NCBI GenBank assembly: GCA_026195905.1
Contig: JAPHRE010000063.1
Coordinates: 1 to 64,000 of the forward strand
Direction: 5' to 3'
Source: Pseudopelagicola sp.
GTDB taxonomy: Bacteria > Pseudomonadota > Alphaproteobacteria > Rhodobacterales > Rhodobacteraceae
DNA: 64,000 bases
Of this stretch, positions 10,671 through 51,709 are shown piece after piece. The notes under the pieces are model-generated. The model had not been told where the DNA came from and made no database searches. It saw only the letters and a program-made list of their open reading frames with translations. Each line of letters begins with the position of its first letter. The stretch's first letter is position 1. Both the position numbers and the translations under genes were made by a program.

Positions 10671-10737
10671 GGTCGAAAATCCGCACTGTCGCGATACCGA
10701 CGCAATACCGACGCGACACATACGCGCATTTTCGACC
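10671..10737 (+). repeat. Dispersed 11-bp iteron repeat, copy 1 (core 10693-10725)
   Basis: Three tandem 11-bp units: GATACCGACGC (10693-10703), AATACCGACGC (10704-10714) and a diverged GACACATACGC (10715-10725). They are enclosed by a perfect 10-bp inverted repeat, GGTCGAAAAT (10671-10680) and ATTTTCGACC (10728-10737). It lies in the gap between the rimK fusion and the Fe-S assembly gene, and the same element recurs near 35.0, 40.4 and 51.7 kb. The right arm overlaps a -35-like TTCGAC. Confidence 0.85.
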
Positions 10738-10759
10738 TCTGGACCTCTGCGCCTATAAT
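10731..10759 (+). promoter_or_regulatory. Candidate sigma-70 promoter behind iteron copy 1
   Basis: TTCGAC (10731-10736) and a perfect TATAAT (10754-10759) are 17 bp apart, placing the start of transcription about 30 bases before the ATG at 10798. The -35 hexamer begins 6 bp after the last iteron unit, so the iterons occupy roughly -75 to -42. Confidence 0.6.
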
Positions 10760-10797
10760 CCTTATATGTTTGCTCAAGTAACACGCAGGACAGGCAC

Positions 10798-11160
10798 ATG
10801 ACTGAACTATCCGATCCCGTCGAAGGCACACCGCTGATCGCTCCATCAAGCACGGACCACCCGCTGCATGAACAGGCTGTCGAGGCCTGCCGCAGTGTGT
10901 TCGACCCCGAGATTCCGGTCAATATCTACGATCTTGGCCTGATCTACACGATTGAAATATCTGAAGAAAATGACGTCCACGTCATTATGACCCTGACCGC
11001 GCCGGGCTGCCCTGTTGCGGGCGAAATGCCCGGTTGGGTGCAAGAGGCCATCGCCGGGGTCGGCGGCGTGCGCGCCGTGACCGTCGATCTCGTCTGGCAA
11101 CCGCCCTGGGGCATGGAAATGATGAGCGACGAAGCCCGACTTGAACTCGGGTTTATGTAA
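10798..11160 (+). CDS. SUF-associated Fe-S assembly protein, MIP18/DUF59 family (SufT type)
   Basis: 120 residues. The DUF59 core spans about 22-105, with FDPEIPVNIYDLGLIY, the conserved Cys in TLTAPGCPVAGEMP, and VDLVWQPPWGMEMMS. Such proteins help insert or mature Fe-S clusters and are often coded with sufABCDS; here only a SufA-like gene follows 28 bases later. The first 20 residues are a poorly conserved polar extension. Transcription probably starts from the TATAAT promoter that follows iteron copy 1. The exact step served, scaffold loading or target maturation, is not settled for this family. Confidence 0.88.
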   Translation: MTELSDPVEGTPLIAPSSTDHPLHEQAVEACRSVFDPEIPVNIYDLGLIYTIEISEENDVHVIMTLTAPGCPVAGEMPGWVQEAIAGVGGVRAVTVDLVWQPPWGMEMMSDEARLELGFM

Positions 11161-11188
11161 TTTTTCAAAGGCTTGAGGAGGAAAGCTC

Positions 11189-11539
11189 ATGTTCGGCATT
11201 CCCGGAAAATCGCCTGTCACAATCACCCCCGCCGCCGTGGCTCAAATCGCGAGGCTGATGCAAAAAGACGGCCACGCCGGTCTGCGTATCGGCGTCAAGA
11301 AAGGCGGCTGCGCGGGCATGGAATATACGATGGACTACGTGTCTGAACCCGACCCCAACGACGAAGTCGTCGAAGTCGAAGGCGCCCGCGTGATGATCGC
11401 CCCTATGGCCCAGATGTTCCTGTTTGGAACCGAAATCGACTATGAAACCTCGCTCCTCGAAAGCGGTTTCAAATTCAACAACCCCAATGTCACCGAAGCC
11501 TGCGGCTGCGGCGAGTCGATCAAGTTCGAAGGCATGTAA
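11189..11539 (+). CDS. HesB/IscA-family Fe-S carrier (SufA-like)
   Basis: 116 residues of A-type carrier fold (TPAAVAQIARLM, LRIGVKKGGCAGMEYTMDY). The three ligand cysteines lie in GGCAGM and EACGCGES near the C-terminus. A-type carriers pass 2Fe-2S or 4Fe-4S clusters from a scaffold to apoproteins. It follows the DUF59 gene in the same direction with a strong AGGAGG before its ATG, so it is the second gene of a two-gene unit. Whether it belongs to the SUF or ISC route cannot be decided; the DUF59 partner favours SUF. Confidence 0.92.
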   Translation: MFGIPGKSPVTITPAAVAQIARLMQKDGHAGLRIGVKKGGCAGMEYTMDYVSEPDPNDEVVEVEGARVMIAPMAQMFLFGTEIDYETSLLESGFKFNNPNVTEACGCGESIKFEGM

Positions 11540-11570
11540 AGCGGGTGTGAGAAGCGCCCCTAACCCCTTC

Positions 11571-12485
11571 TTATGACACATCTTTCAGGTGTAGATAGGT
11601 CTCGTTGAATCGCTTCTCGAGGTGGTCCCCGGCAAGGATAACCCGTCCTGATCCGATCGGCGCAACATTGGTGTCGTGGTTTGGATTAAAGAACATCGGC
11701 ACCGAAATCCGCGCCTCTCGCGTCCCCCGGACGCGATGCGGCGTTGCCCGCACTTTGCCATCGGTCCACATCTCCAACATCTCGCCAAAATTGATGATGA
11801 ACACCCCCGGCTCCGCCTCGACCGGGATCCACGTCCCGTCACGCCGCTGCGCCTCAAGCCCGCCAACACCATCCGTCCCCAAAAGCGTCACACAGCCATA
11901 ATCAGTATGTGTGGCAATGCCAAAATCCTTGTCCGTCGCCCAATCCGGGCGTGGCGGATAATAATTGGCCCGAAGCAACGCCATAGGCCGCGAAAACGCC
12001 GCGTCGAAATAGTCTTCCGGCTGCCCAATCGCCGCCGCGATCCCGCGCAAAATCCCCAAGGAAACGTCCAACGCCCGATCATAATAGCCTTGCACCGTAG
12101 CCCGAAATCCCTCCGGCGCGCGCGGCCAAAGGTTGTCGCCATAAACCGACAGGTTCAACGCCCGAAGCGGATCATCCGGCGCAAGCTCAAACCCACAATC
12201 AAAGACCTGTTTATAGTCGGGATTGGCCTGCGGATCGACCTGCTCCGACCCCGCCGCGCCCCAGCCCCGATTGGCCCCGGTGCGCGCCATGTCAACATCG
12301 CGTTTCTGCGCCTCGCTCAACTGAAAGAACGCTCGGTAAGCCTCTATAACTTCAAGAACATCTTCACGTGTCAGTGCCGAGTTCTCGACAACCAAAAACC
12401 CTGCATCCTCAACCCCCTGACGCAAGAGTGTCATGGTCTTTGCCTCACGCGCGTCGATCTTTCGGGCATCAAGTCTTGGGATCAT
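11571..12485 (-). CDS. Isopenicillin N synthase-family 2-oxoglutarate/Fe(II) dioxygenase
   Basis: 304 residues. The N-terminal DIOX_N region (ESA-like [20 protein letters not shown]) is followed by the 2OG-Fe(II) oxygenase domain with the iron ligands in ATHTDYG and ATPHRVRG. The 2-oxoglutarate-binding Arg-x-Ser is in [12 protein letters not shown]. Members hydroxylate, desaturate or cyclise small molecules; despite the family name this does not imply antibiotic synthesis. Two starts are possible, GTG at 12488 and ATG at 12485; I chose the ATG. It stands alone, convergent with the sufA-like gene and divergent from tpiA. The substrate is unknown. Confidence 0.9.
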
Positions 12486-12605
12486 CACCGGCCTCCTGTC
12501 GGACGCGTCCTTTTACGCCGTGCACCGCCTATGGCGCAAGCCGCCCTTGACGCCCGCCAACGAACCCACGAAAACAGATCAACCAAATTCAACAGGGGGT
12601 CGCAG

Positions 12606-13346
12606 ATGCGTCGTAAACTGGCCGCAGGCAATTGGAAGATGAACGGGCTTGGCGCCGATCTCGCCGAGTTAGAACGCCTCGCCGCCGCCCCCGCGCCGGC
12701 CCAAACGGGCCGCCTTATCTGCCCCCCTGCGACGCTCATTTCGCGCGCCACGCTGATCGCGGGCGATATCGCCATCGGCGGCCAGGACTGCCACGCCGCC
12801 CAATCCGGCGCACATACCGGCGACATCTCCGCCGAAATGCTCGCGGATTGCGGCGCCTCGGCGGTGATCGTCGGCCATTCTGAACGCCGCGCCGATCATG
12901 GGGAAACCGACGCCACCATCGCCGCCAAGGCCAAAGCCGCCTGGGACGAAGGTCTTCTGGCGGTGATCTGCATCGGCGAAAGCCTCGCCCAACGTGACGC
13001 GGGCGAGACCCTCGACCTGATCGCGGCACAACTCGCGGGCTCCCTGCCCGACAACGCCACCGGCGCCAATACCGTGGTCGCCTATGAACCGATCTGGGCC
13101 ATCGGCACCGGCCTCGTCCCGACCCTTGAGCAAATCGCCCAAGCGCACGACTTCATCCGCGAAACCCTCACCGCGCGCTTTGGCGGCGAAGGCCATGCCT
13201 TCCGCCTGCTCTATGGCGGCTCGGTCAAACCCGACAACGCGGCCGATATCTTCTCGGTCGCCAATGTCGACGGCGCATTGGTCGGCGGCGCAAGCCTCAA
13301 GGCCGACGATTTTCAGGCCATCATCGACGCGCTCGACGCCGCCTGA
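12606..13346 (+). CDS. tpiA: Triose-phosphate isomerase
   Basis: 246 residues, the full TIM barrel. It interconverts dihydroxyacetone phosphate and glyceraldehyde 3-phosphate in glycolysis and gluconeogenesis. Motifs seen are the substrate-binding AAGNWKMNG, the electrophilic His in VIVGHSERR, the catalytic Glu in [13 protein letters not shown] (signature), and the phosphate-binding [12 protein letters not shown] plus LVGGASL. The start at 12606 follows a weak GGGGG and is the first Met before the conserved domain. It is monocistronic; three hairpins separate it from the convergent dctM gene. Confidence 0.97.
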
Positions 13347-13349
13347 TCC

Positions 13350-13381
13350 TTCACCTTTGTGAAAATACTCCCGCCGGAGGC
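13350..13381 (+). repeat. 32-bp post-stop repeat, copy 1
   Basis: A 32-base motif beginning TTCACCTTTG and containing AAAATACTCCCGCCGGAGGC starts 3 bases after the tpiA stop. It matches the motif at 34872-34903 (after mlaF) at 26 of 32 positions. Both copies lie just after a stop codon and read in the same direction as the gene before them. Confidence 0.65.
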
Positions 13382-13430
13382 AGATCCCGCAGGCAGCGGC
13401 CCCCTTGGGGCTGCTGACGAGATATCCTGC

Positions 13431-13448
13431 GCGCGGCCCTGGCCGCGC
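13431..13448. other. Perfect GC-rich hairpin between tpiA and dctM
   Basis: GCGCGGCC and GGCCGCGC are separated by two bases. There is no T-run after it, so it may slow polymerase or protect a 3' end rather than terminate. A weaker hairpin, GCAGCGGCCCC / GGGGCTGC, lies at about 13393-13415. Confidence 0.5.
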
Positions 13449-13473
13449 TCCATTCGACATCCGTAAATACAAA

Positions 13474-13497
13474 ACGGCGCCCCAGAAGGAGCGCCGT
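13474..13497 (-). terminator. Terminator of the TRAP transporter operon
   Basis: ACGGCGC (13474-13480) pairs with GCGCCGT (13491-13497). On the minus strand it is followed by TTTTGTATTT, 23 bases after the dctM stop. Confidence 0.8.
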
Positions 13498-13519
13498 CTC
13501 ATCTCTCATAGCAATCCGC

Positions 13520-14896
13520 CTATTGCGTGATGATCTCCGGCCCCATGAACGTATTGGGCAGGACCGTCGAAAGCCACGGAATATAGGTCACCATAATCAG
13601 GAACACGAAGAGCACCGCAAGAAACGGCAACGCCGCCCGCACCACGGCCATCATCGGCATTCCCGCAACCCCGGAGGTTACGAACAGGTTCAAACCAACC
13701 GGCGGCGTGATCATTCCGATCTCCATGTTGACCACCATGATGATGCCAAGGTGAATCGGATCAATCCCCAGCTCCATCGCAATCGGGAACACCAACGGCG
13801 CCACGATCACAAGAAGCCCCGACGGCTCCATGAACTGCCCACCGATCAGCAGGATCACATTGACCACGATGAGGAACATCACCGGCCCAAAGCCCGCCGA
13901 GAGCATCGCGTTGGCAATGGTCTGCGGCACCTGTTCATCGGTCAAAACATGCTTGAGGATAAGCGCGTTGGCGATCACGAACAAAAGCGTCACGGTGAGC
14001 TTGCCTGCCTCGAAAAGCGTATGTTTCGTATCCGGGTGGAAAAACGCGGTGACAAGCGCATAGGGCTTGCGCAGAAGGCTCGATTTTACGCCCGTATCGC
14101 CGCCAGCGAGCGGCCCCATGTCCTTGTAGACAAAACAGGCGATCAAAAAGGCATAGACGGCGGCCACGGCGGCGGCTTCTGTCGGGGTAAAGATCCCGCC
14201 ATAAATCCCGCCAAGGATAATCACGATCAGGAAAAGCCCAAATCCCGCATCCCGTCCCGACTCCAGGATTTCACCCCAGCCAAGCCACTCGCCCTTGGGC
14301 AGGTTCTTGACCCGCGCCATGACATAGATCGTCACCATGAGCATAAAGCCCGCAAGCAACCCCGGAATGACACCGGCAAGGAACATCCGGCCCACCGAAA
14401 CCTCGACCGCGGCGGCATAGACCACCATGACAATGGACGGCGGAATAAGAATACCAAGCGTGCCCGCATTACAAATCACACCGGCGGCAAACTCCTTGGT
14501 ATAGCCAACCTGCCGCATCCCCGCGATCACGATCGACCCGATCGCCACCACGGTCGCTGGCGACGATCCCGACAGCGCGGCAAACAACATACAGGCAAAG
14601 ACCCCCGCAATCGCAAGCCCACCCGGAAGATGCCCGACACAGGCAATCGAGAACCGGATGATCCGCTGCGCAACCCCGCCCGTGGTCATGAAACTTGAGG
14701 CAAGGATAAAGAACGGAATGGCCAGAAGGGTGAAATGCCCCTCGAACGCCTCAAAAAGCGTGCCAGCGACCGATGCCAGCGAGCTTTCCGAGAAGAAGAG
14801 CAAAAACAGCGTCGAGCTGAGGCCGAGCGAGACCGCAATCGGCACCCCGATCAGCAATAGCCCGATCACCATCGTGAAAAGAAGAACCACTTCCAT
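13520..14896 (-). CDS. dctM: TRAP transporter large permease subunit (DctM)
   Basis: 458 residues with about 12 to 13 hydrophobic segments spread along the whole length, as in DctM of Rhodobacter. It opens with MEVVLLFTMVIGLLLIGVPI. Typical conserved parts are LAIPFFILASSFM, the GxSGSSxAxxxAxG pattern in AALSGSSPATVVAIGS, and ITPPVGLNLFV. It forms the ion-coupled pore of a tripartite ATP-independent periplasmic transporter. The start overlaps the dctQ stop by one base (TGATG), so the two subunits are translated together. Last gene of dctP-dctQ-dctM, ending at the terminator at 13474-13497. Confidence 0.96.
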   Translation of the reverse strand: MEVVLLFTMVIGLLLIGVPIAVSLGLSSTLFLLFFSESSLASVAGTLFEAFEGHFTLLAIPFFILASSFMTTGGVAQRIIRFSIACVGHLPGGLAIAGVFACMLFAALSGSSPATVVAIGSIVIAGMRQVGYTKEFAAGVICNAGTLGILIPPSIVMVVYAAAVEVSVGRMFLAGVIPGLLAGFMLMVTIYVMARVKNLPKGEWLGWGEILESGRDAGFGLFLIVIILGGIYGGIFTPTEAAAVAAVYAFLIACFVYKDMGPLAGGDTGVKSSLLRKPYALVTAFFHPDTKHTLFEAGKLTVTLLFVIANALILKHVLTDEQVPQTIANAMLSAGFGPVMFLIVVNVILLIGGQFMEPSGLLVIVAPLVFPIAMELGIDPIHLGIIMVVNMEIGMITPPVGLNLFVTSGVAGMPMMAVVRAALPFLAVLFVFLIMVTYIPWLSTVLPNTFMGPEIITQ

Positions 14897-15561
14897 CAGT
14901 CATGCTCCCCCTGCAAAGCGCGCACTTCTTCGATCTCGTCCTCAACCTCATGGCTGGCAACAAGACGATCTGTCTCTCCGCGCCAGATTTGCAGCGCCGC
15001 CTGAAAAAAGCGAAAGACCATAAGCGCCATAGACACCGGAAGCACGAGATACGGCACCACCTTGGGCAGTTTCTCATATTCCTCGCCATAGTTGATCCAG
15101 TCCTCAAGGAACCGCAGCGCGCCAATCATCGGCACGTCCTGCACCTCATAGAAGGATTGCGAACGGAACTTGTCTTCGAACCCCGTCGGGAACCAGCGCC
15201 CCGAGGTCGGCGGCAAATCCGCGAAAACGGCCCAGTAATCATACGCCCCCTTAAGGAGCAGGAGCGAGAACACCAGACAGATGGCAACCGAGATCAATCC
15301 CATGATCCGCGCCGCCGAGGGCGGCACCATGTTGAGGATCGCATCCACGCCAAGATGGCTGTGTTTTTTGACCGCATAAGAGGCACCCAGCAGGACAAGC
15401 CAGCCAAACAGGAACACCGTCAGTTCCAGCGCCCAGAGAATATTCGAGTTGAATCCGAAACGAGCGATGACATTGGCAAAAGTGATCAACGTCATAAGCC
15501 CAAGCAGGAGCGCAATAAGCGTCTCCTCGATCCGGTCCACAAAGCTATGCCGTTGCTGCAT
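14896..15561 (-). CDS. dctQ: TRAP transporter small permease subunit (DctQ)
   Basis: 221 residues with four membrane helices (LIALLLGLMTLITFANVIAR, LELTVFLFGWLVLLGASYAV, IMGLISVAICLVFSLLLLKG, VVPYLVLPVSMALMVFRFFQ). An unusually long loop, about residues 105-165, between helices 3 and 4 carries several aromatic residues. The standard DctQ motif ANVIARF...ELTVF is present. DctQ binds and stabilises DctM. The start ATG at 15559-15561 is chosen because upstream codons in the frame overlap a strong hairpin that belongs to the dctP-dctQ spacer. The long loop is typical of the dicarboxylate-type group found beside DctBD. Confidence 0.94.
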   Translation of the reverse strand: MQQRHSFVDRIEETLIALLLGLMTLITFANVIARFGFNSNILWALELTVFLFGWLVLLGASYAVKKHSHLGVDAILNMVPPSAARIMGLISVAICLVFSLLLLKGAYDYWAVFADLPPTSGRWFPTGFEDKFRSQSFYEVQDVPMIGALRFLEDWINYGEEYEKLPKVVPYLVLPVSMALMVFRFFQAALQIWRGETDRLVASHEVEDEIEEVRALQGEHD

Positions 15562-15597
15562 ATGGCCTGTCCCCGTCTTGGAAGGTTGGTTTGAAAA

Positions 15598-15623
15598 GGG
15601 CGGCCCGTGTTTCGGGGCCGCCC
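15598..15623 (-). terminator. Intercistronic hairpin between dctP and dctQ
   Basis: GGGCGGCCC pairs with GGGCCGCCC and, on the minus strand, is followed by CTTTTC. It sits between the binding-protein gene and the permease genes. It probably acts as a partial terminator or 3' stabiliser, so that the periplasmic protein is made in excess over the permease. Confidence 0.7.
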
Positions 15624-15662
15624 GTTGTCTTGCACGCATGGCGCGCAAGACGGGAGGTCCGA

Positions 15663-16667
15663 TTACATGGACGCGTTGATCGCTTGCGCCGCGTCGATGT
15701 TGTCCTGGCCAACGTCATCCGAGAACTGCTCCCAGACCGGCTTCATCGTATCGACCCAGTCCTGACGCTGTTCTGCCGAAAGCTGACGGATGGTGCCACC
15801 TGCATCGACAATCGCCTGTTTGGCGGCGTTGTTGACGGCGGTCGATTCCGAGTTCCGCATCGCGGTGACTTCGCCAAGAATGGTCAGGAACTGATCGCGC
15901 ACATCCGCATCAAGGCTGTCGAGCCAATCCACGCTCGTCACAACAAGATAGTCGATCACACCGTGGTTGGTCTCGGTGATGCCGTCCTGCACCTCAAAGA
16001 ACTTCTTGCCGTAGATGTTCGACCAGGTGTTCTCCTGACCGTCGACAACACCCTGCTGAAGCGCGCCGTAAACTTCCGAGAAGGCCATTTTCTGCGGGCT
16101 GCCGCCGATGGCTTCCATCTGCGCCACAAGCACATCCGAAGACTGCACGCGGAACTTGAGACCGTTGGCATCGCTCGGCGACACAAGCGGCTTGTTGGCC
16201 GACATCTGCTTCATGCCATTGTGCCAATAGGCCAGCCCCTGAAGGCCGCGGCGCTGCATCGAGTCAAGAAGCGCCTGACCGGCATCAGACGCTTGGAATG
16301 CGTCCACGGCGTTGATGTCTTTGAACATGAACGGCAGGTCAAAAATGCGGAATTTCTTGGTGAATTTTTCAAACTTCGAAAGGCTCGGCGCGGCAAGTTG
16401 CACATCGCCCTGAAGCATTGCTTCAAGCACCTTGTTGTCGTTGTAAAGCGTCGAGTTCGGGAACACTTCCATGCAGGCGGTGCCGTTCATCTCTTCATTG
16501 ACGCGCTTTTCAAGCAGCGAGGCCGCGATGCCTTTGGGGTGCTTGTCGGTGTTGGTCACGTGGCTGAACTTGATGACGATCTCGCCATCGTCGCACGCGG
16601 CCATTGCGGTAGTGCCTGCGGTGACGGTCAGGGCCAGCGCGGTGGCGGCAGTGGTCAAAAATTTCAT
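15663..16667 (-). CDS. dctP: TRAP transporter substrate-binding protein (DctP)
   Basis: 334 residues. Signal peptide 1-23 (MKFLTTAATALALTVTAGTTAMA) precedes a DctP-family periplasmic receptor: IVIKFSHVTNTDKHPKG, the substrate Arg region in GLKFRVQSSDVLVAQMEAIGG, and GVVDGQENTWSNIYGKKF. The match to the C4-dicarboxylate receptor group, together with adjacent dctD and dctB, points to succinate, fumarate or malate uptake. It is the first gene of dctP-dctQ-dctM. Two GTGCG...CGCAC operators lie about 195 to 245 bases upstream, the probable DctD sites. Confidence 0.95.
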   Translation of the reverse strand: MKFLTTAATALALTVTAGTTAMAACDDGEIVIKFSHVTNTDKHPKGIAASLLEKRVNEEMNGTACMEVFPNSTLYNDNKVLEAMLQGDVQLAAPSLSKFEKFTKKFRIFDLPFMFKDINAVDAFQASDAGQALLDSMQRRGLQGLAYWHNGMKQMSANKPLVSPSDANGLKFRVQSSDVLVAQMEAIGGSPQKMAFSEVYGALQQGVVDGQENTWSNIYGKKFFEVQDGITETNHGVIDYLVVTSVDWLDSLDADVRDQFLTILGEVTAMRNSESTAVNNAAKQAIVDAGGTIRQLSAEQRQDWVDTMKPVWEQFSDDVGQDNIDAAQAINASM

Positions 16668-16860
16668 GGTATCTCCTCCCAGAGGTCAGACTTCGAATTT
16701 GGTGATGCCCGAAAAACCGGGCGCTCCGCGCAAAACACTGCCGTTGTCGCAATAGCCGCTCAAGGGTTTGTTACCCGACCGTGTGAATTTTGCATTTCCG
16801 ATTTGTTTTCAACGCAATAGAGACCAATCCACTGCAACACCCCGCATGGCGCGGCCCAAT

Positions 16861-16880
16861 CTGTGCGATTTTTCGCACAG
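16861..16880. promoter_or_regulatory. Probable DctD-binding site, distal of two
   Basis: CTGTGCGATTTTTCGCACAG has perfect 8-base arms around TTTT. Its core GTGCG...CGCAC resembles DctD upstream activator sites of rhizobia. Its centre is 32 bp, about three helical turns, from that of the second site. Confidence 0.7.
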
Positions 16881-16893
16881 GCATTCCCCGCTT

Positions 16894-16911
16894 TGTGCGG
16901 AAAGTCGCACA
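16894..16911. promoter_or_regulatory. Probable DctD-binding site, second of two
   Basis: TGTGCGGAAAGTCGCACA has 6-base perfect arms around a 6-base centre. It shares GTGCG...CGCAC with the site at 16861-16880, on the same helix face, as expected for co-operative binding of a dimeric regulator. Confidence 0.7.
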
Positions 16912-17014
16912 GGACTCGCCACCGCCCAGCGCCCGACACCATTCTCATACCGACGATTATAAACCTGATCCCGGCGCAAATAGGTCCCAAAAGGGCGGGC
17001 AAAAGCCCTTGCCC

Positions 17015-20016: not shown

Positions 20017-20057
20017 CGCTTCGATCCTAGCAGTGCGCGCCCCCTGCTGACCATGAC

Positions 20058-21707: not shown

Positions 21708-21842
21708 GCCGCGCCAAAGCGGTTCACGCCCCTCTCAAAGCCGGTCCACAGGGCCGGCTTTTTGCGGTCCGGGACAAAATCACACGGGTGACAAACCGCG
21801 CCCGCACGGCCTAAAGTTGCATCAGGCAACCAAGGGACCGCC

Positions 21843-29807: not shown

Positions 29808-29809
29808 GA

Positions 29810-34996: not shown

Positions 34997-35050
34997 AAAC
35001 CCCACCGACGCGATACCGACGCAATACCGACGCGATACCGACATGGGTTT
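34997..35050 (+). repeat. Dispersed 11-bp iteron repeat, copy 2 (core 35012-35044)
   Basis: Units GATACCGACGC (35012-35022), AATACCGACGC (35023-35033) and GATACCGACAT (35034-35044), with a further partial unit before them (CCGACGC to 35011). Short arms AAACCC (34997-35002) and GGGTTT (35045-35050) flank the array. It is the best-preserved of the four copies. It lies 92 bases before the pqiA-like start, and TTCGCC at 35050-35055 has the same spacing as the -35-like boxes at copies 1 and 4. Confidence 0.85.
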
Positions 35051-40335: not shown

Positions 40336-40344
40336 TCGGCACCA

Positions 40345-40383
40345 CCGCAATACAGACGCAATACCGACGCGATACAGATGCGG
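40345..40383 (+). repeat. Dispersed 11-bp iteron repeat, copy 3 (core 40349-40381)
   Basis: Units AATACAGACGC (40349-40359), AATACCGACGC (40360-40370) and GATACAGATGC (40371-40381). The ends CCGCA (40345-40349) and TGCGG (40379-40383) form a short inverted repeat. The middle unit is identical in all four copies. It lies 49 bases before the SDR start. Here the -35-like TTGACC (40396-40401) is 9 bases further away than in the other copies. Confidence 0.85.
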
Positions 40384-40430
40384 CTAAACCGCCCCTTGAC
40401 CTTGTCGCATCAAGGGCGCACATCCCTCCT

Positions 40431-41087
40431 ATGACCGATACAAAATCTCCCAAAATCGCCCTCGTAACCGGGGCGTCGCGAGGCCTCGGCGCTGCTTTTG
40501 CCGAGGCGCTTGCCGAAACCCACCACGTTGTCGCCGTCGCCCGCACCACCGGCGCGCTTGAAGAGCTCGACGACCGCATTCAGTCCAAGGGCGGCGCCGC
40601 CACGCTCGCGCCTATGGACATTACCAATACCGACGCAATGGCCCAACTTTGCCGCTCGATCCATGATCGCTGGGGCACGGTGGATCTCTGGGTGCACGCC
40701 GCCGTTCATGCCGCGCCTCTGACCCCTGCGGATCATATTGACCCGAAGGATTGGGAGAAATCCATCGCCACCAACCTGACCGCAACCGGCCAGTTGATTT
40801 CCTTCCTAAGCCCGCTATTGGGGCAAAACGGTCACGCCGTGTTCTTTGACGATCCCCATAACGGCGAGAAATTCTTCGGCGCTTACGGCGCGACCAAGAC
40901 CGCCCAGATCGCCCTCGCCCAAAGCTGGCAGGCCGAAAGCCTGCGCACCGGACCGCAAATCTCGATTGTGACGCCCACCCCCATGCCAACCGCGACCCGC
41001 GCGCGTTTCTTCCCCGGCGAAGACCGCGCCCCGCTCAAGGATACCCGCGACGAGACCGCCCGGATCATGGCCGACCTCGCGCTCTGA
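40431..41087 (+). CDS. SDR-fold protein with altered catalytic serine
   Basis: 218 residues. The Rossmann start ALVTGASRGLGAAFAEAL is a standard TGxxxGxG cofactor site, and GAYGATKTAQ gives the YxxxK pair. The Ser expected 12 to 14 residues before Tyr is replaced by Asp or Phe (VFFDDPHNGEKFF), and NAG is read as VHAAVHAAP. It is therefore either a changed reductase or a non-enzymatic relative. It is preceded by iteron copy 3 and followed after 137 bases by surE. The substrate is unknown. Confidence 0.82.
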   Translation: MTDTKSPKIALVTGASRGLGAAFAEALAETHHVVAVARTTGALEELDDRIQSKGGAATLAPMDITNTDAMAQLCRSIHDRWGTVDLWVHAAVHAAPLTPADHIDPKDWEKSIATNLTATGQLISFLSPLLGQNGHAVFFDDPHNGEKFFGAYGATKTAQIALAQSWQAESLRTGPQISIVTPTPMPTATRARFFPGEDRAPLKDTRDETARIMADLAL

Positions 41088-41224
41088 ACCGACCTGTGCG
41101 GGGCTGTCCATTGGCCCCGCAAGCCGCCCTCGCCCCCCCCTTGGGACCAAGGGCGCTCTTGCCCCACGCCCGCCCCTCCACTAGACAGGAAACACAGGTA
41201 TTTTCCAGAGAATAAGGGCGGTCC

Positions 41225-42663: not shown

Positions 42664-42770
42664 TCTGGGGCAAAACCAAAGAAAACAGGCCAAAAATTGG
42701 CCATTTGGTATGAGTAGAGCATCGCCGCCCCGTCCCGATAACGGCATCGGGCGAGAATTGAGGACCCAAG

Positions 42771-43970: not shown

Positions 43971-43990
43971 GGCATCAATCGCTGCGGGCT

Positions 43991-44833: not shown

Positions 44834-44908
44834 CGGGCGGCTCTCCATCTCGTGCCCTCGGTTTGAACCACGAAGCCGCGCCCCCGGCAAGAGGTTGTGC
44901 CAACGAAA

Positions 44909-44934
44909 AAGGCGCGCCACAACGGACGCGCCTT
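44909..44934 (-). terminator. Terminator of tatABC
   Basis: AAGGCGCG / CGCGCCTT with a 10-base loop, followed on the minus strand by TTTTTCG, 20 bases after the tatC stop. It separates tatABC from the DUF815 ATPase gene. Confidence 0.85.
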
Positions 44935-44953
44935 TTGCTTAAAGGAGATGGGA

Positions 44954-45976
44954 TCAGGAGGTTCTGTCGACCTGCCCGTCATCCTCATCGTCATCTTCCG
45001 CCTCGTCAAATTCCTTCATGAGCGGATCGTCAAACTCTTCCTCGTCATCTTCAAAGGGACGCTGGGCGGCCGGGGCTGCCTCGTCCTCTTCGTCATCGTA
45101 ATAGCCTTCGGCCCGAAGCTGCGCCTCGCGCTTTTTCTCGACCCGCCGCACAAGGAAAATCGACACCTCGTAAAGACCATAGACCACCGTAAAGAGGATC
45201 AACTGCGTGACGACATCCGGCGGCGTCACAAGCGCGGCCAGCACAAGAATGCCCACCATCGCGTATTTGCGCACCGACCCAAGCCCGTCCGCCGACACAA
45301 GCCCCGCCTTGCCCATCAGCGTCAGAAGCACCGGAAGCTGAAAGCAAAGGCCAAAGGCGATGATGAATTTGAGCGTAATATCAAGACTTTCATTCACCTT
45401 ACCAAAGAAAGTGACCTTGATCCCCTCTTGCGTCTCCGGCACCACCACGGCTTCGGATGGCAGGTTCGGCGCATCCCCCAACAGATTGGCAAAAATCGAG
45501 CTGACATCGGCAAAGCCAAGGAAGAACGACATCGCCAGCGGCGTCACCACGAAATGCGCGAAACTCGCCCCGAGCAGGAACATGAACGGCGAGGCCACCA
45601 TAAAGGGCAGAAACGCGCCCTTCTCATTGCGGTAAAGCCCCGGCGCCACAAAGCGCCACATCTGAAAGGCGATGACCGGGAACGCCATCGCAAACCCGAA
45701 CACCATCGAAATGCGGAACAGGGTAAAGAGATATTCCTGCGGCGAGGTATATTGCAGCGTCGGCGACGGGTCGCCAAGTGCGCGCAACGACGCCTCGATC
45801 GGAGACAGCAGGAAGTTGAGGATATGCACGGCGATAAAATCGCCACCGATCGGGATAAAGCAGATGGTGATCCCCACGAGAAGCGCAAGCACCGACCGGA
45901 TCAGCCGCGTGCGCAATTCCGCCAGATGCTCGATCAGCGGCGCGGAGCTTTCCTCCATGTCGTCTGTGCTGCTCAT
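44954..45976 (-). CDS. tatC: Twin-arginine translocase subunit TatC
   Basis: 340 residues. Six helices carry the family motifs [50 protein letters not shown] and [20 protein letters not shown]. TatC recognises twin-arginine signal peptides on folded proteins. It has a long C-terminal extension of about 60 residues that is strongly acidic ([30 protein letters not shown]), well beyond the about 258 residues of E. coli TatC. It overlaps tatB by 4 bases. Confidence 0.96.
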
Positions 45977-46476
45977 GCTGTATCGTCCTTCCCGGCACCC
46001 GTCCCTGCGTCCGTGGTCGCGGGCGTTTTATCCGCCTCTGCTGCCTTGGCCGCTGCTGCCGCCTCCTCGGCGGCCTGCTTCTCTTTGGCAATGCGGGCTT
46101 CGGCCTTGGCCGTGCTCGCTTCGCGGATCTTGCGCGCGGCTTCGGCGCGTTCCGCCGAAAGTTTGCCGGTCTCGCTTTCGGGGGTCACATCGGTCATGGA
46201 TTTCGCCGCGTCCTTGACCGCGCTGGTCGCGGATTTGACCGGGTTCTTCACCTTGCCAATTCCGTCCGTCGCACTCTTCAAAGAATCGCTCACGTCCTTC
46301 ATGCCTGACTGTTCCGCCGCTTGGTTCATGGCGCTGGAAAACTCCCGCGCCATCCCCTTGGCCTTGCCGACAAACTGACCAACCCGCCGGAACAGAACCG
46401 GAAGGTCTTTTGGCCCCACAACAATCAGCGCCACAACGCCAATCACCAGAAGCTCGGGCATACCGAGATCAAACAT
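45973..46476 (-). CDS. tatB: Sec-independent translocase subunit TatB
   Basis: 167 residues. A short N-terminal helix ([26 protein letters not shown]) and the amphipathic helix [20 protein letters not shown] are the TatB type, with Glu8 and GPKDLP. The C-terminal half is a low-complexity Ala/Lys/Glu helix ([20 protein letters not shown]...[12 protein letters not shown]). It pairs with TatC in the receptor complex. Second gene of tatA-tatB-tatC. Confidence 0.94.
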
Positions 46477-46494
46477 GGCCTATAAGCCCCCGTT

Positions 46495-46713
46495 TCAGAC
46501 TTTGTCTTTTTCGTCTTCCGGGGTGACGTCCTTGGCAACGTCTGCTTTGTCGTCTTCAAGCTCGGCCTGCCCTTCGCTAATGCCTTTCTTGAACGACGTG
46601 ATGCCCTTGCCCACTTCGCCCATCAGGCCCGAAATCTTGCCGCGTCCGAAAAGCACAAGCACGACAATCGCGATCAGTAGAATGCCCGGAAGGCCGATAT
46701 TTCCAATTCCCAT
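46495..46713 (-). CDS. tatA: Sec-independent translocase subunit TatA
   Basis: 72 residues. The start MGIGNIGLPGILLIAIVVLVLFGRGKI gives the short membrane helix and the FGRGK hinge, and LMGEVGKGITSFKKGI is the amphipathic helix typical of TatA. The tail is charged. TatA polymerises to make the passage. It is first in the operon, 18 bases before tatB. Confidence 0.95.
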   Translation of the reverse strand: MGIGNIGLPGILLIAIVVLVLFGRGKISGLMGEVGKGITSFKKGISEGQAELEDDKADVAKDVTPEDEKDKV

Positions 46714-46849
46714 AGTCTTTCTCCCATGTGTCCCGGCTCACCCGCAAGCCGTTCAAAAATCCAGACCCATTTCTAAGCCCTCTGCCCCGGAACGAAAAGC
46801 AGCAATCACAGCCCGTTTCGGCCTTTTTGGGCTGTTTTTTGCCCGCAAA

Positions 46850-46885
46850 TTGTCAGCAGCTTGTCAGTTGACAGGTTTTTGTCAG
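46850..46885. promoter_or_regulatory. TTGTCAG cluster with TGTCA-GT-TGACA dyad before the WYL gene
   Basis: TTGTCAG occurs at 46850, 46861 and 46879, and TTGACAG at 46868. The middle pair forms the dyad TGTCAGTTGACA (46862-46873). It lies 34 to 70 bases before the ATG at 46920, where an autoregulated WYL regulator would bind. Binding is inferred. Confidence 0.55.
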
Positions 46886-46919
46886 TATGGCCCCGAACGA
46901 CATGAGAGAATCACCCGCG

Positions 46920-47588
46920 ATGAAACGCTCTGAAAGGCTCTATGCCCTGATCGAAATCCTCAAGGATGGACGCCTGCACCGCGCCGAGGATATGGCCCGG
47001 CGGCTCGATGTTTCGGTGCGCACCATCTACCGCGATATGGACACGCTCGTCGCCTCTGGTGTGCCGGTCGAGGGCGAACGCGGTATCGGTTATTCGGCCC
47101 GCGCCGCCATTACCCTGCCGCCCCTGAACCTGACCGAAACCGAACTGGAGGCGCTGCATCTTGGGCTTGCCGCCGTCGGCAATGGGGTTGATGGCGACCT
47201 GCGCAACGCCGCACAAAGCCTCTCGGCCAAGATCGACGCCGTGCTTCCCGAAGACCACCACGGCGCGCCGAAATCCTTTGGCTTTGCCGTCTACCCCTTT
47301 GCCGACGCCGCCGAGGGCTTCCGCCACCTGAGCACACTGCGCGCCGCGATCCGAGGCCGCCAGAAACTCCGCCTTGTCATGCAAGATGGCACAGTGCGCG
47401 ACGTCCGGCCGCTCAAGCTTGATTACTGGGGGCGTGTCTGGACCTGCCTCGTCTGGTGCGACAGTAGCGGCGATTTCGCCACCCTGCGCGCCGATCAGAT
47501 CACCGAGGTTAGCGTCCTTCCCGGCCTTTTCGTCGATGAACCGGGCAAGCGGCTCGAAGACTACCGGGCGGGGCTGGACGCGCCTTAG
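46920..47588 (+). CDS. YafY-type transcriptional regulator with WYL domain
   Basis: 222 residues. The N-terminal DeoR-like helix-turn-helix (RSERLYALIEIL, HRAEDMARRLDVSVRTIYRDM) precedes a WYL domain (KLRLVMQDGTVRDVRPLKLDYWGRVWTCLVWCDSSGDFATLRADQI). WYL modules sense nucleic-acid or nucleotide ligands. The start MKRSERLY at 46920 is preferred since GAGAGAA precedes it; ATGs at 46887 and 46902 would add up to 11 residues. A TTGTCAG cluster lies directly upstream. Its 3' end overlaps the convergent ABC ATPase gene by 4 bases. Confidence 0.9.
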   Translation: MKRSERLYALIEILKDGRLHRAEDMARRLDVSVRTIYRDMDTLVASGVPVEGERGIGYSARAAITLPPLNLTETELEALHLGLAAVGNGVDGDLRNAAQSLSAKIDAVLPEDHHGAPKSFGFAVYPFADAAEGFRHLSTLRAAIRGRQKLRLVMQDGTVRDVRPLKLDYWGRVWTCLVWCDSSGDFATLRADQITEVSVLPGLFVDEPGKRLEDYRAGLDAP

Positions 47589-48670
47589 CGCCCGGCGCGG
47601 AATACGAAACAGCGGTCCCGCCGCAGCATGAGCCAAAGCGGCGTGCCGGGTTTGGGCAGGAACACATTCGGCACCGTCGCCTTCAACGTCGATCCGTCGT
47701 GATCCATGCGAAATTCCACAAGGCTCTCCGTGCCCATAAACCGCGCCCGCTCGACCACGCCCCGTGCCGCGACCCCATCGCCCGGTGTCGGCAATGGCCC
47801 TTTTCCGTGCCGGTCAAAGTCAAGTTTGAGATGCTGCGGACGGATCACGATCTCGACCTCCTCGCCATCCTCAAACCCCGGCGTCAGGAACTGGCCAAAC
47901 GGCGTATCGGTCAACGCGCCGTTGCTGGTGCCACGGATCACGTTGATATCGCTAAAAAACGCCACCGCGGCCTTATCGACCGGCGCGTTGTAAATGTTAT
48001 AGGGCGCGCCTTGCTGCACGATCTTGCCGTCGCGCATAAGCGCGATCTCATCGGCCATGCGAAGCGCCTCTTCCGGTTCATGCGTCACCAAAAGAACGGC
48101 CGTGTCCTCGTCCTTGAGGATCGCCAGCGTCTCGTCGCGAATCCCGTCTCGTAGCCGGTTATCAAGTCCCGAAAACGGCTCATCCATAAGCATAATCCGG
48201 GGTCGCGGCGCCAAGGCCCGCGCCAGCGCGATACGCTGTTGCTCGCCCCCCGAAAGGCTATGCGGATAGGCGTCGATGGTCCACTCAAGCCCCACCTTGG
48301 CCAAAAGCTCCTCGACCCGCGCCCGTTTCTCGGCCTTACTGCCCTTAAGGCCAAACGCCACGTTATCGGCGACAGTCAGATGCGGGAAAAGCGCGAAATC
48401 CTGAAACATAAGGCCGATATGACGCCGCTCTGGCGGCACTCGGAACACCGTGTCACAAATCAGATTGCCATCGACATAAATCTCGCCGGAATCCTGCATA
48501 TCGACCCCGGCAATGATCCGCAGCGTCGTCGATTTGCCACAACCCGACGGCCCCAGGAGGCAGGTCACATGCCCCGGCTGAATGGTGAGCGAGACGCCCG
48601 CCACCACGTCACGGTCGCCAAAACGGCGCCGCAGATTGCGGATTTCAAGTCTGGGAGGGGGCTGCGTCAC
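47585..48670 (-). CDS. ABC transporter ATPase of the FbpC/PotA type, without a permease in view
   Basis: 361 residues. Walker A is LLGPSGCGKSTTLRIIAG, the Q-loop MFQDFALFPHLTV, the signature LSGGEQQRIALARALA, Walker B IMLMDEPFSGLD, the H-loop VLLVTHEPEEAL, and a C-terminal TOBE domain follows (VEIVIRPQHLKL). The type serves ferric iron, spermidine or putrescine uptake. It starts with GTG at 48670. No permease or binding-protein gene lies beside it: upstream is an SDR-like gene and downstream a WYL regulator. The substrate cannot be told. Confidence 0.9.
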   Translation of the reverse strand: MTQPPPRLEIRNLRRRFGDRDVVAGVSLTIQPGHVTCLLGPSGCGKSTTLRIIAGVDMQDSGEIYVDGNLICDTVFRVPPERRHIGLMFQDFALFPHLTVADNVAFGLKGSKAEKRARVEELLAKVGLEWTIDAYPHSLSGGEQQRIALARALAPRPRIMLMDEPFSGLDNRLRDGIRDETLAILKDEDTAVLLVTHEPEEALRMADEIALMRDGKIVQQGAPYNIYNAPVDKAAVAFFSDINVIRGTSNGALTDTPFGQFLTPGFEDGEEVEIVIRPQHLKLDFDRHGKGPLPTPGDGVAARGVVERARFMGTESLVEFRMDHDGSTLKATVPNVFLPKPGTPLWLMLRRDRCFVFRAGR

Positions 48671-48785
48671 GACGGTCTCTCAATCGGATCTCTCAATCGG
48701 GGTCTTTCATGGCGTCTCTGATCCCGACTGAGTGAAAGGCTCGGGAATTTTGCGACCCTTACCAGCCCCCCTCCCGGCTCGCAAC

Positions 48786-49565
48786 CTAAAGCGTTGCGTT
48801 GACCGCGCCACCATCCAGCAGAATGTTCTGCCCGACAATGAACCCGGCATGCTGTGAACACAGGAACGCACAGGTCGCGCCAAACTCCTGCGCCGTGCCA
48901 TAGCGCCCGGCCGGAATTGTCGCGCAGCGGTTGGCCTTGGCCTCTTCAAGGCTGATCCCCTGCTGCGTCGCAACGCCGGTATCAAGCGATACGGCACGAT
49001 CCGTCGCATGAATGCCCGGCAACAGGTTATTGATGGTGACACCGCTGCCCGCCACCTGCCGCGCCGTGCCCGCAACATAGCCCGTAAGCCCGGCGCGCGC
49101 CGAATTGGACAGGCCAAGAACCGCAATCGGTGCCTTGACGGATTGCGAGGTGATGTTGACCACCCGGCCCCATCCCTTGTCCATCATCCCCGGCAAAAGC
49201 GCCTTCATAAGCGCAATCGGCGCAAGCATATTGGCATCGAGCGCCTTGATAAAATCCTCACGATCCCAATCGCTCCAAAGACCCGGCGGCGGGCCGCCCG
49301 CATTGGTCACAAGAATATCGGCCCCTTCGGCAGCCCGTAGCACGGCGGCTTGCCCCTCAGGCGTCGCCACATCCGCAACGACGGTTTCAATCGCAACTCC
49401 GAACCGCGCCCGTAAATCCGCTGCGGCCGCCTCAAGCGCCTCTGCACCGCGCGCATTCATCACAAGCTCCACGCCCGCCTCTGCAAGCGCCTCGGCACAG
49501 CCAAAGCCCAAGCCTTTGGAGGATGCGCACACAAGCGCCTTTTTACCTTTAATTCCAAGTTCCAT
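48786..49565 (-). CDS. SDR-family protein with altered YxxxK site
   Basis: 259 residues. The Rossmann start ALVCASSKGLGFGCAEAL has TGxxxGxG changed to CASSKGLG, and NAG is kept in ILVTNAGGPPPG. The catalytic Ser may be in VVNITSQSV, but the YxxxK pair reads SNSAR, so both Tyr and Lys are changed. The C-terminus is normal (FGATCAFLCSQHAGFIVGQNILLDGG). Such divergent SDRs occur widely and may still bind NAD(P). It is upstream of, and co-directional with, the ABC ATPase gene (115 bases). Function is unknown. Confidence 0.82.
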   Translation of the reverse strand: MELGIKGKKALVCASSKGLGFGCAEALAEAGVELVMNARGAEALEAAAADLRARFGVAIETVVADVATPEGQAAVLRAAEGADILVTNAGGPPPGLWSDWDREDFIKALDANMLAPIALMKALLPGMMDKGWGRVVNITSQSVKAPIAVLGLSNSARAGLTGYVAGTARQVAGSGVTINNLLPGIHATDRAVSLDTGVATQQGISLEEAKANRCATIPAGRYGTAQEFGATCAFLCSQHAGFIVGQNILLDGGAVNATL

Positions 49566-49707
49566 TGTATCTCTCTCCTGTTCTTCGCGCCTCAGGTAAC
49601 GTGAATTTCATCGCGACTGCCAGCAAATTGCCGACAGCATGGCCACAATCTGCCATAATCAGGGGCCATAGCTTGCATACCGCAGAGCTATCAGAGAAAA
49701 CCGCGCC

Positions 49708-50733
49708 ATGTCATCGCCCCGCCCTCAATCCACGTTTCCCGCTCAACAACTGCCTGTGCATATGGCGGAAGATTTTTGTGTGATCAACGGGGCGAATCTA
49801 GGCGACGCGCTCTCTTTTGCCGACGAACTTGTGCCCGACGATATCTACGAACTCAGCCCCAAAACCGAAATCCATCGCCTGTCGATGCATATCGGCGAGG
49901 ACGACGCCTACCGCGTCAGCGACGAAAGCGCGACCGGAATCCCCGGTGCCGCGCTTTATGCGGATTGTGTTTTGACCATCATGCCACCAACCGGCGAAAC
50001 CGTCGAAATCGTGGTGCTTGTCGAGGTCGATAGCGAGGGCAACGTGGCCCAGATTTACGCCGCCCCCCTTACCCCCCTCTTGGCCAAGACACCCTATACA
50101 TTGGTCGGCATCGACCGCCCCGCCGCCCGCCTGCGCATGGCGCAGCTCGCCTGCGTCAGCTTCACCCGTGGCACCCGCATCACTATGGCCACCGGCGAAC
50201 AGAAACCTGTCGAAAACATCGAACCCGGCGACCGCATCCTGACGCGTGATGATGGCCCGCAGCCCGTGCGCTGGATCGGCCACCTGACGATGCGCGCACA
50301 GGGTGAATTTGCCCCGATTGTCATCACCGAAGGCACCCTCAACAATGCGGGTGACCTAACCGTTAGCCCCGATCACCGCCTCTTCATCTACCAGCGCCAC
50401 GACCATATCGGCGCGGGCCGCTCGGAACTGCTCGTCCGGGCGCGCCATCTGGTCAATGGCGAAACCGTCTTCGTTCAGGAGGGCGGCTTTGTCGACTACT
50501 TCCAAATCCTCTTTGACACGCATCAGATCATCTTTGCCGAAGGTATCTGCGCCGAAACCATGCAGGCCGATCAACGCACTCGGCCGGTCTTGCCGCGCGA
50601 TGTTGAAAAGCACCTTAATAAGCTTTCCAACGCGGCCCCCGGCGGGGCCACACGGCGCGCCTTTGAGCCGCAAAAAACCCTGCTGGATCGCCCCGATGCC
50701 GTCGATCTTCTGCGCCGGGCATCAAGCCGCTGA
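49708..50733 (+). CDS. Hint-domain protein with Ser in place of the splicing Cys
   Basis: 341 residues. Residues about 1-145 form an N-terminal region with repeated acidic strands. The Hedgehog/Intein (Hint) module at about 150-300 starts ACVSFTRGTRITMATGEQKPVENIEPGDRILTRDDGPQPVRWIG. It continues with SPDHRLFI (block B His) and VYFQ-like FVDYFQILFDTHQIIFAEG. The usual first residue Cys of CFTxGT is Ser here. Such stand-alone Hint proteins are common in Roseobacter genomes; many sit at the end of secreted adhesins. No signal peptide is obvious. Function is unknown. Confidence 0.82.
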   Translation: MSSPRPQSTFPAQQLPVHMAEDFCVINGANLGDALSFADELVPDDIYELSPKTEIHRLSMHIGEDDAYRVSDESATGIPGAALYADCVLTIMPPTGETVEIVVLVEVDSEGNVAQIYAAPLTPLLAKTPYTLVGIDRPAARLRMAQLACVSFTRGTRITMATGEQKPVENIEPGDRILTRDDGPQPVRWIGHLTMRAQGEFAPIVITEGTLNNAGDLTVSPDHRLFIYQRHDHIGAGRSELLVRARHLVNGETVFVQEGGFVDYFQILFDTHQIIFAEGICAETMQADQRTRPVLPRDVEKHLNKLSNAAPGGATRRAFEPQKTLLDRPDAVDLLRRASSR

Positions 50734-50804
50734 ATTCGACGCCAAAGGCTTGAACGGCGCCGCCACTGACACCACATCTAAAAGAGAGATATCGGGAGTC
50801 AGAC

Positions 50805-51641
50805 ATGCCAAAAACCATCCTCGCCACCACCGACCTTTCCGCCCGCAGCGACCGCGCCTTGCACCGTGCTTTGCGCTTGGCGCGCGCCAACGATGCCTCC
50901 CTCACGGTGATGCATATTGTGGACGACGCGATCCCCGATGCTATGGCGCAAACTCACCGCGACGCCGTAGAATCCAATCTGCGTCAGCTCATGGCGTCGA
51001 TGGACGGCGGAGAGACGGCAAAAATCGAGGTGATCATCGGCGACCCGATCACCGACATCATCGCTCAGGTTCAGGACACGCACCCGGATTTGCTTGTGAT
51101 GGGGGTGCACCGTGTGCGGCCCTTCTTTGATACATGGCGCGAAACCACGGCCCAACGGATCACGCGCATGGCGTCTTGTCCGGTTCTCATGGTCAAAGAC
51201 TCTGCCGATCGCCCCTATGACAAAGTGGTGGCCGCAACCGATTTCTCGCCCGCGAGCACTGCCGCTATCGTCCGCGCCGCGTCGCTCGCGCCCGACGCCA
51301 CGATCACGCCCCTCCATGCCTTCCATGTGCCCTATAGCGGCATGCTGGCGCATGGACCGGATGGCCGTAACGATCTCGAAGCGAGCTTTCAGGCCGAGGC
51401 CAAGGCCGATGATGACCGCTGGCGCGCGACAACCGACTTGCCCGAGACCTGTGGCGAGACGCTCTTTGTCACCGGCCAGCCGCGCCGCGCGCTTGAGGCC
51501 CATGTCGCCAGCAGCGATACCAACCTGATCTGTGCCGGTGCGCATGGCCGTGTCGGACAGGGGCGCGCTCTGCTTGGCTCGACCGCAACGGATTTGCTGC
51601 GCGCGCCGCCCTGCGATATTTTGATCGCCCGCCCGGCCTGA
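50805..51641 (+). CDS. Tandem universal stress protein (two Usp domains)
   Basis: 278 residues. Each half starts with a Usp beta strand (ILATTDLSARSDRALHRALR and VVAATDFSPASTAAIVRAA). The C-terminal domain keeps the ATP-binding G-x2-G-x9-G-S motif in GAHGRVGQGRALLGSTATDLL, whereas the N-terminal one (GVHRVRPFFDTWRETTAQRI) has lost it. Usp proteins support survival in starvation and oxidative stress. GGGAGTC lies before the ATG. Single gene; iteron copy 4 starts 35 bases after its stop, before prfC. Confidence 0.9.
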   Translation: MPKTILATTDLSARSDRALHRALRLARANDASLTVMHIVDDAIPDAMAQTHRDAVESNLRQLMASMDGGETAKIEVIIGDPITDIIAQVQDTHPDLLVMGVHRVRPFFDTWRETTAQRITRMASCPVLMVKDSADRPYDKVVAATDFSPASTAAIVRAASLAPDATITPLHAFHVPYSGMLAHGPDGRNDLEASFQAEAKADDDRWRATTDLPETCGETLFVTGQPRRALEAHVASSDTNLICAGAHGRVGQGRALLGSTATDLLRAPPCDILIARPA

Positions 51642-51676
51642 AGCGACCCGAAAACCGCACAAAACCGCACAGTCGC

Positions 51677-51709
51677 AATACCGACGCAATACCGACGCGA
51701 TACATATCC
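51677..51709 (+). repeat. Dispersed 11-bp iteron repeat, copy 4
   Basis: Units AATACCGACGC (51677-51687), AATACCGACGC (51688-51698) and GATACATATCC (51699-51709). The A-rich left flank AAAACCGCAC (twice, 51650-51670) resembles that of copy 1. The array ends 41 bases before prfC. Confidence 0.85.

Follow-up and report, generated by a model that had tools for sequence, protein, structure and literature searches.

What are the short tandem repeats that stand four times in a 64,000-nucleotide stretch of Pseudopelagicola sp. (positions 1 to 64,000 of contig JAPHRE010000063.1, hereafter the window), each time in front of an unrelated gene? The original prediction described them as helically phased arrays of three 11-bp units, such as an activator or repressor would occupy. 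Our analysis suggests another role: with a probability of roughly 0.7, the arrays are the binding sites of a BrnA-type ribbon-helix-helix (RHH) protein that works without a toxin partner, and they probably serve as chromosome-wide marks. This reading draws on the number and placement of the copies, on the RHH gene that accompanies them from genome to genome, and on a repeat unit that varies together with the predicted DNA-reading strand of the protein. Below, genomes, contigs, and loci are denoted by G, C, and L numbers, respectively.

The arrays and their distribution

Rereading of the window at each position found the four predicted cores on the plus strand, and direct reading showed that the middle unit AATACCGACGC is the same in all of them and that the unit following it starts with GACAC or GATAC. 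The 33-bp core of three units matches as described, but each array is really 44 bp long and consists of four 11-bp units, the first (upstream) of which is weaker (Table 1). The degenerate triple pattern fitted all four cores exactly and had no match in 100 dinucleotide shuffles; with up to three mismatches allowed, five matches were obtained in the window, the fifth being an overlapping register of array 3. The four arrays were confirmed as genuine and far above chance expectation.

The expectation of many copies per genome was borne out. The whole genome (3.06 Mb, 80 contigs) gave 130 raw matches with up to three mismatches, overlapping registers counted, and 0 with the reversed pattern, and at least 86 distinct arrays (53 without mismatch, 30 with one, and 3 with two) were read in context, a lower bound from the stretches read. 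Since these 20 stretches were hand-picked on array-bearing contigs, the array densities are not unbiased; genes were called by a rough codon-usage script, and start positions are approximate. The consensus of 83 aligned copies is CGCACCGACGC-RATACMGACGY-RATACCGACGY-GATACMGACNN-GCGTTTT, and positions 2 to 10 of the middle unit are conserved at 98–100%, with A at position 1 in 78%. TTTT follows within 25 bp in 64/83 copies and AAAA precedes the array in 30/83. The A tract stays at the same flank across two repeat types, at 64/83, 36/77, and 6/10, compared with 4/83, 3/77, and 0/10 in control stretches. In the surroundings of 25 of the 83 copies GTTAAC was counted 38 times, mostly 21–60 bp before or 40–59 bp after the array, versus 27 times in 464 kb, and related motifs flank many arrays in other genera too. 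GTTAACC as an independent dispersed motif was rejected, as an array stands no more than 120 bp away from 34 of its 50 intergenic sites; it is taken as a companion motif of the arrays.

Among the other 23 genomes of the genus, only G005, G008, and G012 lacked the pattern, which was detected in the remaining 20 and in 9/198 genera of the family (one genome per genus, the source genus included), four of which had at least 12 matches. A scan with the relaxed repeat (ACCGNCG) returned the same nine genera and added none, and none of 16 genomes from other families of the class contained the pattern. Scanning named genomes yielded at least 80 loci; the titles of the 80 listed belong, as we place the genera, to Rhodobacteraceae or Rhodobacterales. 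No exact array match was found in viral contigs and no BLAST match in PLSDB plasmid and phage records, both searches being run without a positive control. RepC matches were present in 4/25 genomes, and in G022 the exact arrays, among those listed, lay off its three RepC contigs, which hold too little sequence for this to carry weight.

The RHH gene and coupled change of the repeat

Clustering of the genes beside 226 arrays revealed a small gene with an array 71–91 bp upstream at four loci in three genomes, two of the loci probably belonging to one genome. Its product matches BrnA_antitoxin (PF14384), an RHH family; in this genome it is a 121-aa protein encoded on contig C58, outside the window. 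A conserved P-x-x-W stretch precedes the RHH domain. The gene was found in 22/25 genomes of the genus and is missing from exactly G005, G008, and G012, the three without the pattern, which thus offer natural controls lacking both arrays and RHH. In the 24 same-genus genomes that could be compared, RHH occurred in 21/21 with arrays and 0/3 without (Fisher, 5e-4); G237 carries the gene too and lies outside the 24 genomes with a genome-wide array count. Across the family, 71 of the 198 genera reached E ≤ 0.001 for an RHH match, and for 13 of these E was below 1e-26; all four array-rich genera, with the source genus among them, belong to these 13 (1e-5).

The gene itself usually has an array of its own. 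Upstream of the 51 RHH homologues with a locus (22/22 from the genus and 29 from the other 70 family genera), direct-repeat periods of 5 to 22 bp were tested, and 11 bp ranked top in 42 of them, with 22 bp doing so in 3, the array usually standing 50–90 bp ahead of the start call. Such an array before the RHH gene makes autoregulation probable: the protein probably controls its own level through it, and single copies such as this one may act on a promoter. No BrnT was present among ten neighbour proteins of nine RHH homologues, and a BrnT-like motif had one unconvincing match in six frames of the 51 loci. No ATPase partner appeared among ten neighbours of the nine homologues either, and none was common to the twelve largest clusters of the 51 loci as judged by eye. 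Searching the PDB by sequence gave no real match, and an AlphaFold model built from two sequence rows (mean pLDDT 45) was not used. In G004 (L369), a genome with 9 array matches, the search flags one TAG in the RHH match, and the domain reads through intact.

The repeat unit varies by lineage, taking the forms GTCGGTAT, GTCGGCAT, GTCGGAC, GTATGG, GTGCACA, and CGTCTTCC. Read along the RHH gene, the promoter units are of the GCGTCGGTATT type in the source genus, G158, G190, and G164, ACGTCGGCATG in G181, TCGGAC in G210, G103, and G207, GTATGG in G144, G155, G184, and G106, GTGCACA or ATGCACA in G050, G112, G071, G086, and G169, and of the CGTCTTCC type in G116 and G160. In the protein, positions 1, 3, and 5 of the beta-strand K-V-T-L-Y-L-D presumably face the DNA, following the RHH rule. 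A lysine in this strand was accompanied by GG in the unit in 14/15 genera and an arginine by a unit without GG in 9/9 (7.6e-6; 3.4e-5 if the GTCGGTA genera are treated as one), where unit classes were assigned by eye, G183, G042, G223, and G120 were omitted as having no significant array, and rows with H or Q were set aside (GG in G105, none in G040). Both CGTCTTCC-type genera have asparagine at the middle strand position, and tyrosine occupies residue 5 in all 20 GTCGGTA rows. In a short, weakly resolved tree made without G016, G106 (K, GTATGG) stands beside G086 (R, TGCACA) with a support of 100/94, so the K/R switch does not follow descent alone. The repeat and the putative DNA-reading strand of the RHH protein change in step between genera.

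If the promoter unit is the mark of its genome, GTATGG arrays are expected genome-wide in other genera. They were found in 14/198 genera, with 1 to 159 raw matches (the highest counts being 159 in G106, 74 in G184, and 32 in G144), and all 14 fall among the 71 genera with an RHH match (hypergeometric, 2e-7). By coordinates, a GTATGG array also stands just before the RHH gene in G113 and G174.

Placement, polarity, and competing explanations

None of the 86 arrays of this genome lies inside a called gene. The downstream genes in the window had been named correctly (PF01883 Fe-S assembly, PqiA, SDR, and RF3), and placement upstream of plus-strand genes holds for them, but it fails as a rule when the 86 arrays are read in context. 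The 79 arrays with both neighbours called (the other 7 are at edges) comprised 36 pointing with both genes, 13 pointing against both, 26 in convergent, and 4 in divergent gaps; the 245 background gaps were 151 codirectional, 33 convergent, and 61 divergent. Convergent gaps were thus enriched (26/79 vs 33/245; Fisher, 3e-4) and divergent gaps depleted (4/79 vs 61/245; Fisher, 4e-5), and genome-wide the arrays are not placed like promoter elements. In a set of 80 arrays from other genera, 22 pointed with both genes, 15 against both, 19 were convergent, 6 divergent, and 16 at edges.

Table 1. Arrays and other features of the window. Units are listed in order; the first of each array is the weaker upstream one and starts at the first position given.
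Feature	Position	Strand	Units or sequence	Neighbouring genes or remark
Array 1	10682..10725	+	CGCACTGTCGC / GATACCGACGC / AATACCGACGC / GACACATACGC	RimK-type ATP-grasp gene (end 10657) / Fe-S assembly gene (10798)
Inverted arms flanking array 1	10670-10745		GGTCGAAAAT and ATTTTCGACC	
Array 2	35001..35044	+	CCCACCGACGC / GATACCGACGC / AATACCGACGC / GATACCGACAT	ABC-transporter ATPase gene / PqiA-like gene
Array 3	40338..40381	+	GGCACCACCGC / AATACAGACGC / AATACCGACGC / GATACAGATGC	89-aa open reading frame without Pfam match / SDR gene
Array 4	51666..51709	+	CGCACAGTCGC / AATACCGACGC / AATACCGACGC / GATACATATCC	universal-stress-protein gene / prfC (RF3)
Lone unit beyond the arrays	40626-40636		AATACCGACGC	
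Lone unit beyond the arrays	63969-63979		AATACCGACGC	
tRNA gene	1724-1796	-		with the next, sole Rfam match in the window (gathering threshold)
tRNA gene	1908-1979	-		

The copies are oriented in line with GC skew. In this genome, ATACCGAC lies on the C-rich strand in 45/53 arrays (those of the 86 in stretches of at least 8 kb, where arrays that share a contig are not independent) and in 39/44 when strand-balanced skew is used; counted by contig, 28/31 are oriented with GC skew, with one tie. Tested against the local majority gene strand, orientation gave p = 0.17. Beyond this genome, 50/54 arrays of other genera and 19/20 further same-genus loci, 69/74 together, agreed with the skew (74 of 80 arrays, in loci of at least 4 kb), as did 20/24 GTATGG short loci (24 counted of 28 given and 30 fetched). 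On G184:C5, 10/10 GTATGG arrays are on the G-rich strand, their direction switching where the skew switches. Long contigs behave likewise: on G023:C18 the skew is below zero at the points sampled between 0 and 1.29 Mb, and among the 26 arrays listed before 1.31 Mb the plus strand holds 23; in G017, the sampled skew is positive on C1 from 0.85 Mb on (14/14 arrays minus) and on C2 from 0.2 to 0.9 Mb (9/9 minus), and it is negative on C3 at 0.42 and 0.58 Mb (4/4 plus, between 0.42 and 0.68 Mb). In all these cases polarity along the replication arms was judged by GC skew. The arrays extend over most of a 1.56-Mb contig in G023 and over 4 contigs in G017, and they are more regularly spaced than chance would give in G015 (P = 0.002), G017 (P = 0.048), and G023:C18 (P = 0.0045, listed 0- and 1-mismatch sites only).

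Turnover of individual sites is high. An array precedes prfC in 4/25 genomes (this one, G022, G020, and G001), and the Fe-S gene has one before the same promoter in 11/25 same-genus loci, one of the remaining loci being cut by a contig end. Few sites are common to genera; a leuC-leuD-like gap is shared by this genome and Boseongicola, and a site between a parC-like gene and its neighbour by this genome, another of the genus, and a metagenome-assembled genome, the genes being named by eye and chance overlap being possible.

We propose that each of the four units would bind one RHH dimer, so that the four dimers would line up on the same helical face beside the A tract. Each chromosome in the genus has roughly ten to a hundred further copies, intergenic and fairly evenly spread, their GCGTCGGTAT strand coinciding with the G-rich (leading) strand. 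Such oriented and spaced marks would let a nucleoprotein complex organise the replicating chromosome, segregate it, or police it, much as matS or KOPS do, and control of neighbouring genes would probably not be their main job. The arrays, their counts, context, polarity, and spacing, the promoter arrays, the co-occurrence with the RHH gene, and the co-variation of repeat and strand are read directly from sequence. Physical binding, the one-dimer-per-unit arrangement, autoregulation, and the chromosomal role we infer from sequence patterns, and the preference for a chromosomal over a regulatory role is our best guess from context, polarity, spacing, and site turnover. The fullest form of the proposal, to which we give slightly less than even odds, is a new class of chromosome-organisation system, in which from tens to over 100 replichore-oriented, evenly spaced four-unit iterons would be coated by a domesticated RHH protein of the BrnA type, with protein and iteron re-coded jointly on many occasions across Rhodobacteraceae.

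Several observations weigh against these proposals. Five few-copy ATACCGAC genera (8, 7, 3, 1, and 1 matches) had no RHH match at E ≤ 0.001; these genera (G094, G215, G119, G146, and G197) possibly hold relics left after loss of the binder. Conversely, ATACCGAC arrays are missing from nine genera that possess a strong RHH homologue; in eight of these the gene is preceded by a different 11-bp array, and in G223 by none. No clear array was seen upstream of the RHH gene in G003, G011, G013, and G237 of the genus itself, and G016 has 39 array matches yet a TAG stop inside the RHH domain. Dispersal of a genome's own promoter unit, checked in two genomes, amounted to 4 matches in G155 and one more array in 400 kb of G074, and the one homologue read of two in G169 has an ATGCACA promoter array, yet there are 12 genomic GTATGG matches. 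The reversed GTATGG control gave 11 matches in G144 and a single one in each of G110, G123, G139, G174, and G184; G123 has a single real match as well. In G102, 3/3 GTATGG arrays lie on the C-rich strand, contrary to elsewhere. Arrays inside called genes were met outside this genome (2 in the 80-array set from other genera, 2/10 in G184, and 1/24 among the GTATGG short loci), and the convergent excess is absent from G184 (1/10 arrays).

Among the rival explanations, the one that survives best, though we regard it as unlikely, is that the sites are directionless, the arrays mutate in place, and their polarity mirrors strand composition. From base frequencies alone the consensus is about 14:1 likelier on the C-rich strand, which is near the observed 45:8 and 69:5 and is a confounder of the polarity argument. 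The C-rich unit CGTCTTCC of G116, which lies on the G-rich strand both in its sole clear-skew array and in a weak-skew promoter copy, speaks against this explanation, and four in-phase units would hardly be built by drift.

Somewhat less probable still is the rival closest to the original prediction, in which the RHH protein regulates transcription globally through the arrays as its operators, the working ones standing upstream of promoters such as those of prfC and the Fe-S gene. BrnA proteins regulate their own expression, an 11-bp array precedes most RHH genes, and the Fe-S gene array keeps its promoter position in the 11 loci mentioned. The test of position and orientation relative to genes gave a divided answer: codirectional copies point with transcription in 36/49 cases (p = 0.001), which counts for operators and against chromosomal marks, but divergent regions, the richest in promoters, are depleted and convergent ones enriched. 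High site turnover, as at prfC, and orientation by skew also disagree with a regulon. The predicted phased protein-binding array is supported, and a promoter-type activator or repressor array as a general rule is not.

Spread by copying, as a family like repetitive extragenic palindromic (REP) sequences or miniature inverted-repeat transposable elements, appears more doubtful again. Insertion into the lagging strand by HUH-type transposition would give the polarity, with the RHH protein binding secondarily, and the intergenic position, gene-end bias, and patchy range (9/198 genera) would fit, as would the REP-associated tyrosine transposase (RAYT) gene downstream of the RHH gene in G000 C58 (L364; this copy is NF047646), G020 (L366), and G158 (L386). 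Against this, the aligned copies have no conserved hairpin or terminus, their flanking sequences differ from copy to copy, the spacing is even and unclustered, and the repeat tracks the RHH strand. Nor was a decayed tail found: in a 464-kb sample the arrays had 0–1 mismatch in their best register and all other places at least 7. RAYT as the spreader of the arrays was rejected, as the RAYT loci seem, when read by eye, to have REP-like hairpins of their own.

Bidirectional terminators or insulators at gene ends, with the array in the loop, are very improbable: A and T tracts do lie on opposite sides of the array and long, terminator-hairpin-like inverted arms enclose 10/83 copies (window array 1, L019, L003, L053, and L009 among them), but the arms pair barely above swapped arms in this genome (z = 2.1) and no better than them in other genera (z = −1.2), and the arrays had no Rfam match in the window at the gathering threshold.

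Comparison with known systems

The original prediction placed the repeat outside any named family, and we likewise found no matching family in the literature or Rfam. Among the full-text matches listed, which include few subscription papers, no description of such an array system was found, and the titles listed for searches with the repeat sequence look unrelated. The arrays and the RHH gene point to what may be an undescribed chromosome-wide marking system, and several known systems share parts of it.

The plasmid R1 type of ParR-parC combines an RHH protein with tandem 11-bp direct repeats before its own gene and a specificity that drifts between relatives; it forms one plasmid centromere with a ParM partner, whereas the present arrays are many and chromosomal, and no partner gene was seen beside the RHH genes examined. 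MetJ and its met box arrays, with cooperative RHH dimers on tandem units, differ in having 8-bp boxes at the promoters of a metabolic regulon. The trait common to both, tandem direct repeats before an RHH gene, was found here with period 11 in most homologues. REP/RAYT elements are likewise multi-copy and intergenic with a gene-end bias; they differ from the present copies, which lack a hairpin, consist of 11-bp direct repeats, and are evenly spaced. With BrnT-BrnA toxin-antitoxin pairs the protein shares the RHH domain of the antitoxin family, but no adjacent BrnT was found in our limited tests, P-x-x-W precedes the domain, and the sites are genome-wide.

The enterobacterial MatP-matS system resembles the proposed one in having an RHH-fold protein and many chromosomal sites. 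In the available excerpts of PMC7188993, matS is a 13-mer within an 800-kb region and MatP is found only in Enterobacteriaceae and Vibrionaceae. Unlike matS, a single 13-mer in the terminus region, the present sites have four phased units, are oriented, and belong with another protein family, and the arrays of G023 and G017 are spread along the chromosome instead of being confined to the terminus. Two proteins were rejected: CenR of Rhodobacter as the reader, whose TGA-N8-TGA motif in the accessible part of PMC9275681 does not match ATACCGAC every 11 bp, and ZapT of Caulobacter as a homologue, which the same excerpts of PMC7188993 annotate as MerR family. KOPS, as presented in the part of PMC2680272 available, are chromosome-wide and oriented along the replication arms, as the arrays are by GC skew with composition as a confounder; each KOPS is one 8-bp motif, which FtsK gamma reads, whereas the arrays are 44 bp long and tied to an RHH gene.

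Both a candidate mark of chromosome arms and its candidate reader can here be recognised from sequence. Their coupled changes provide many natural tests of RHH specificity, and, if the proposal is true, the family would hold a natural series of cognate protein/iteron pairs, like an evolving centromere.

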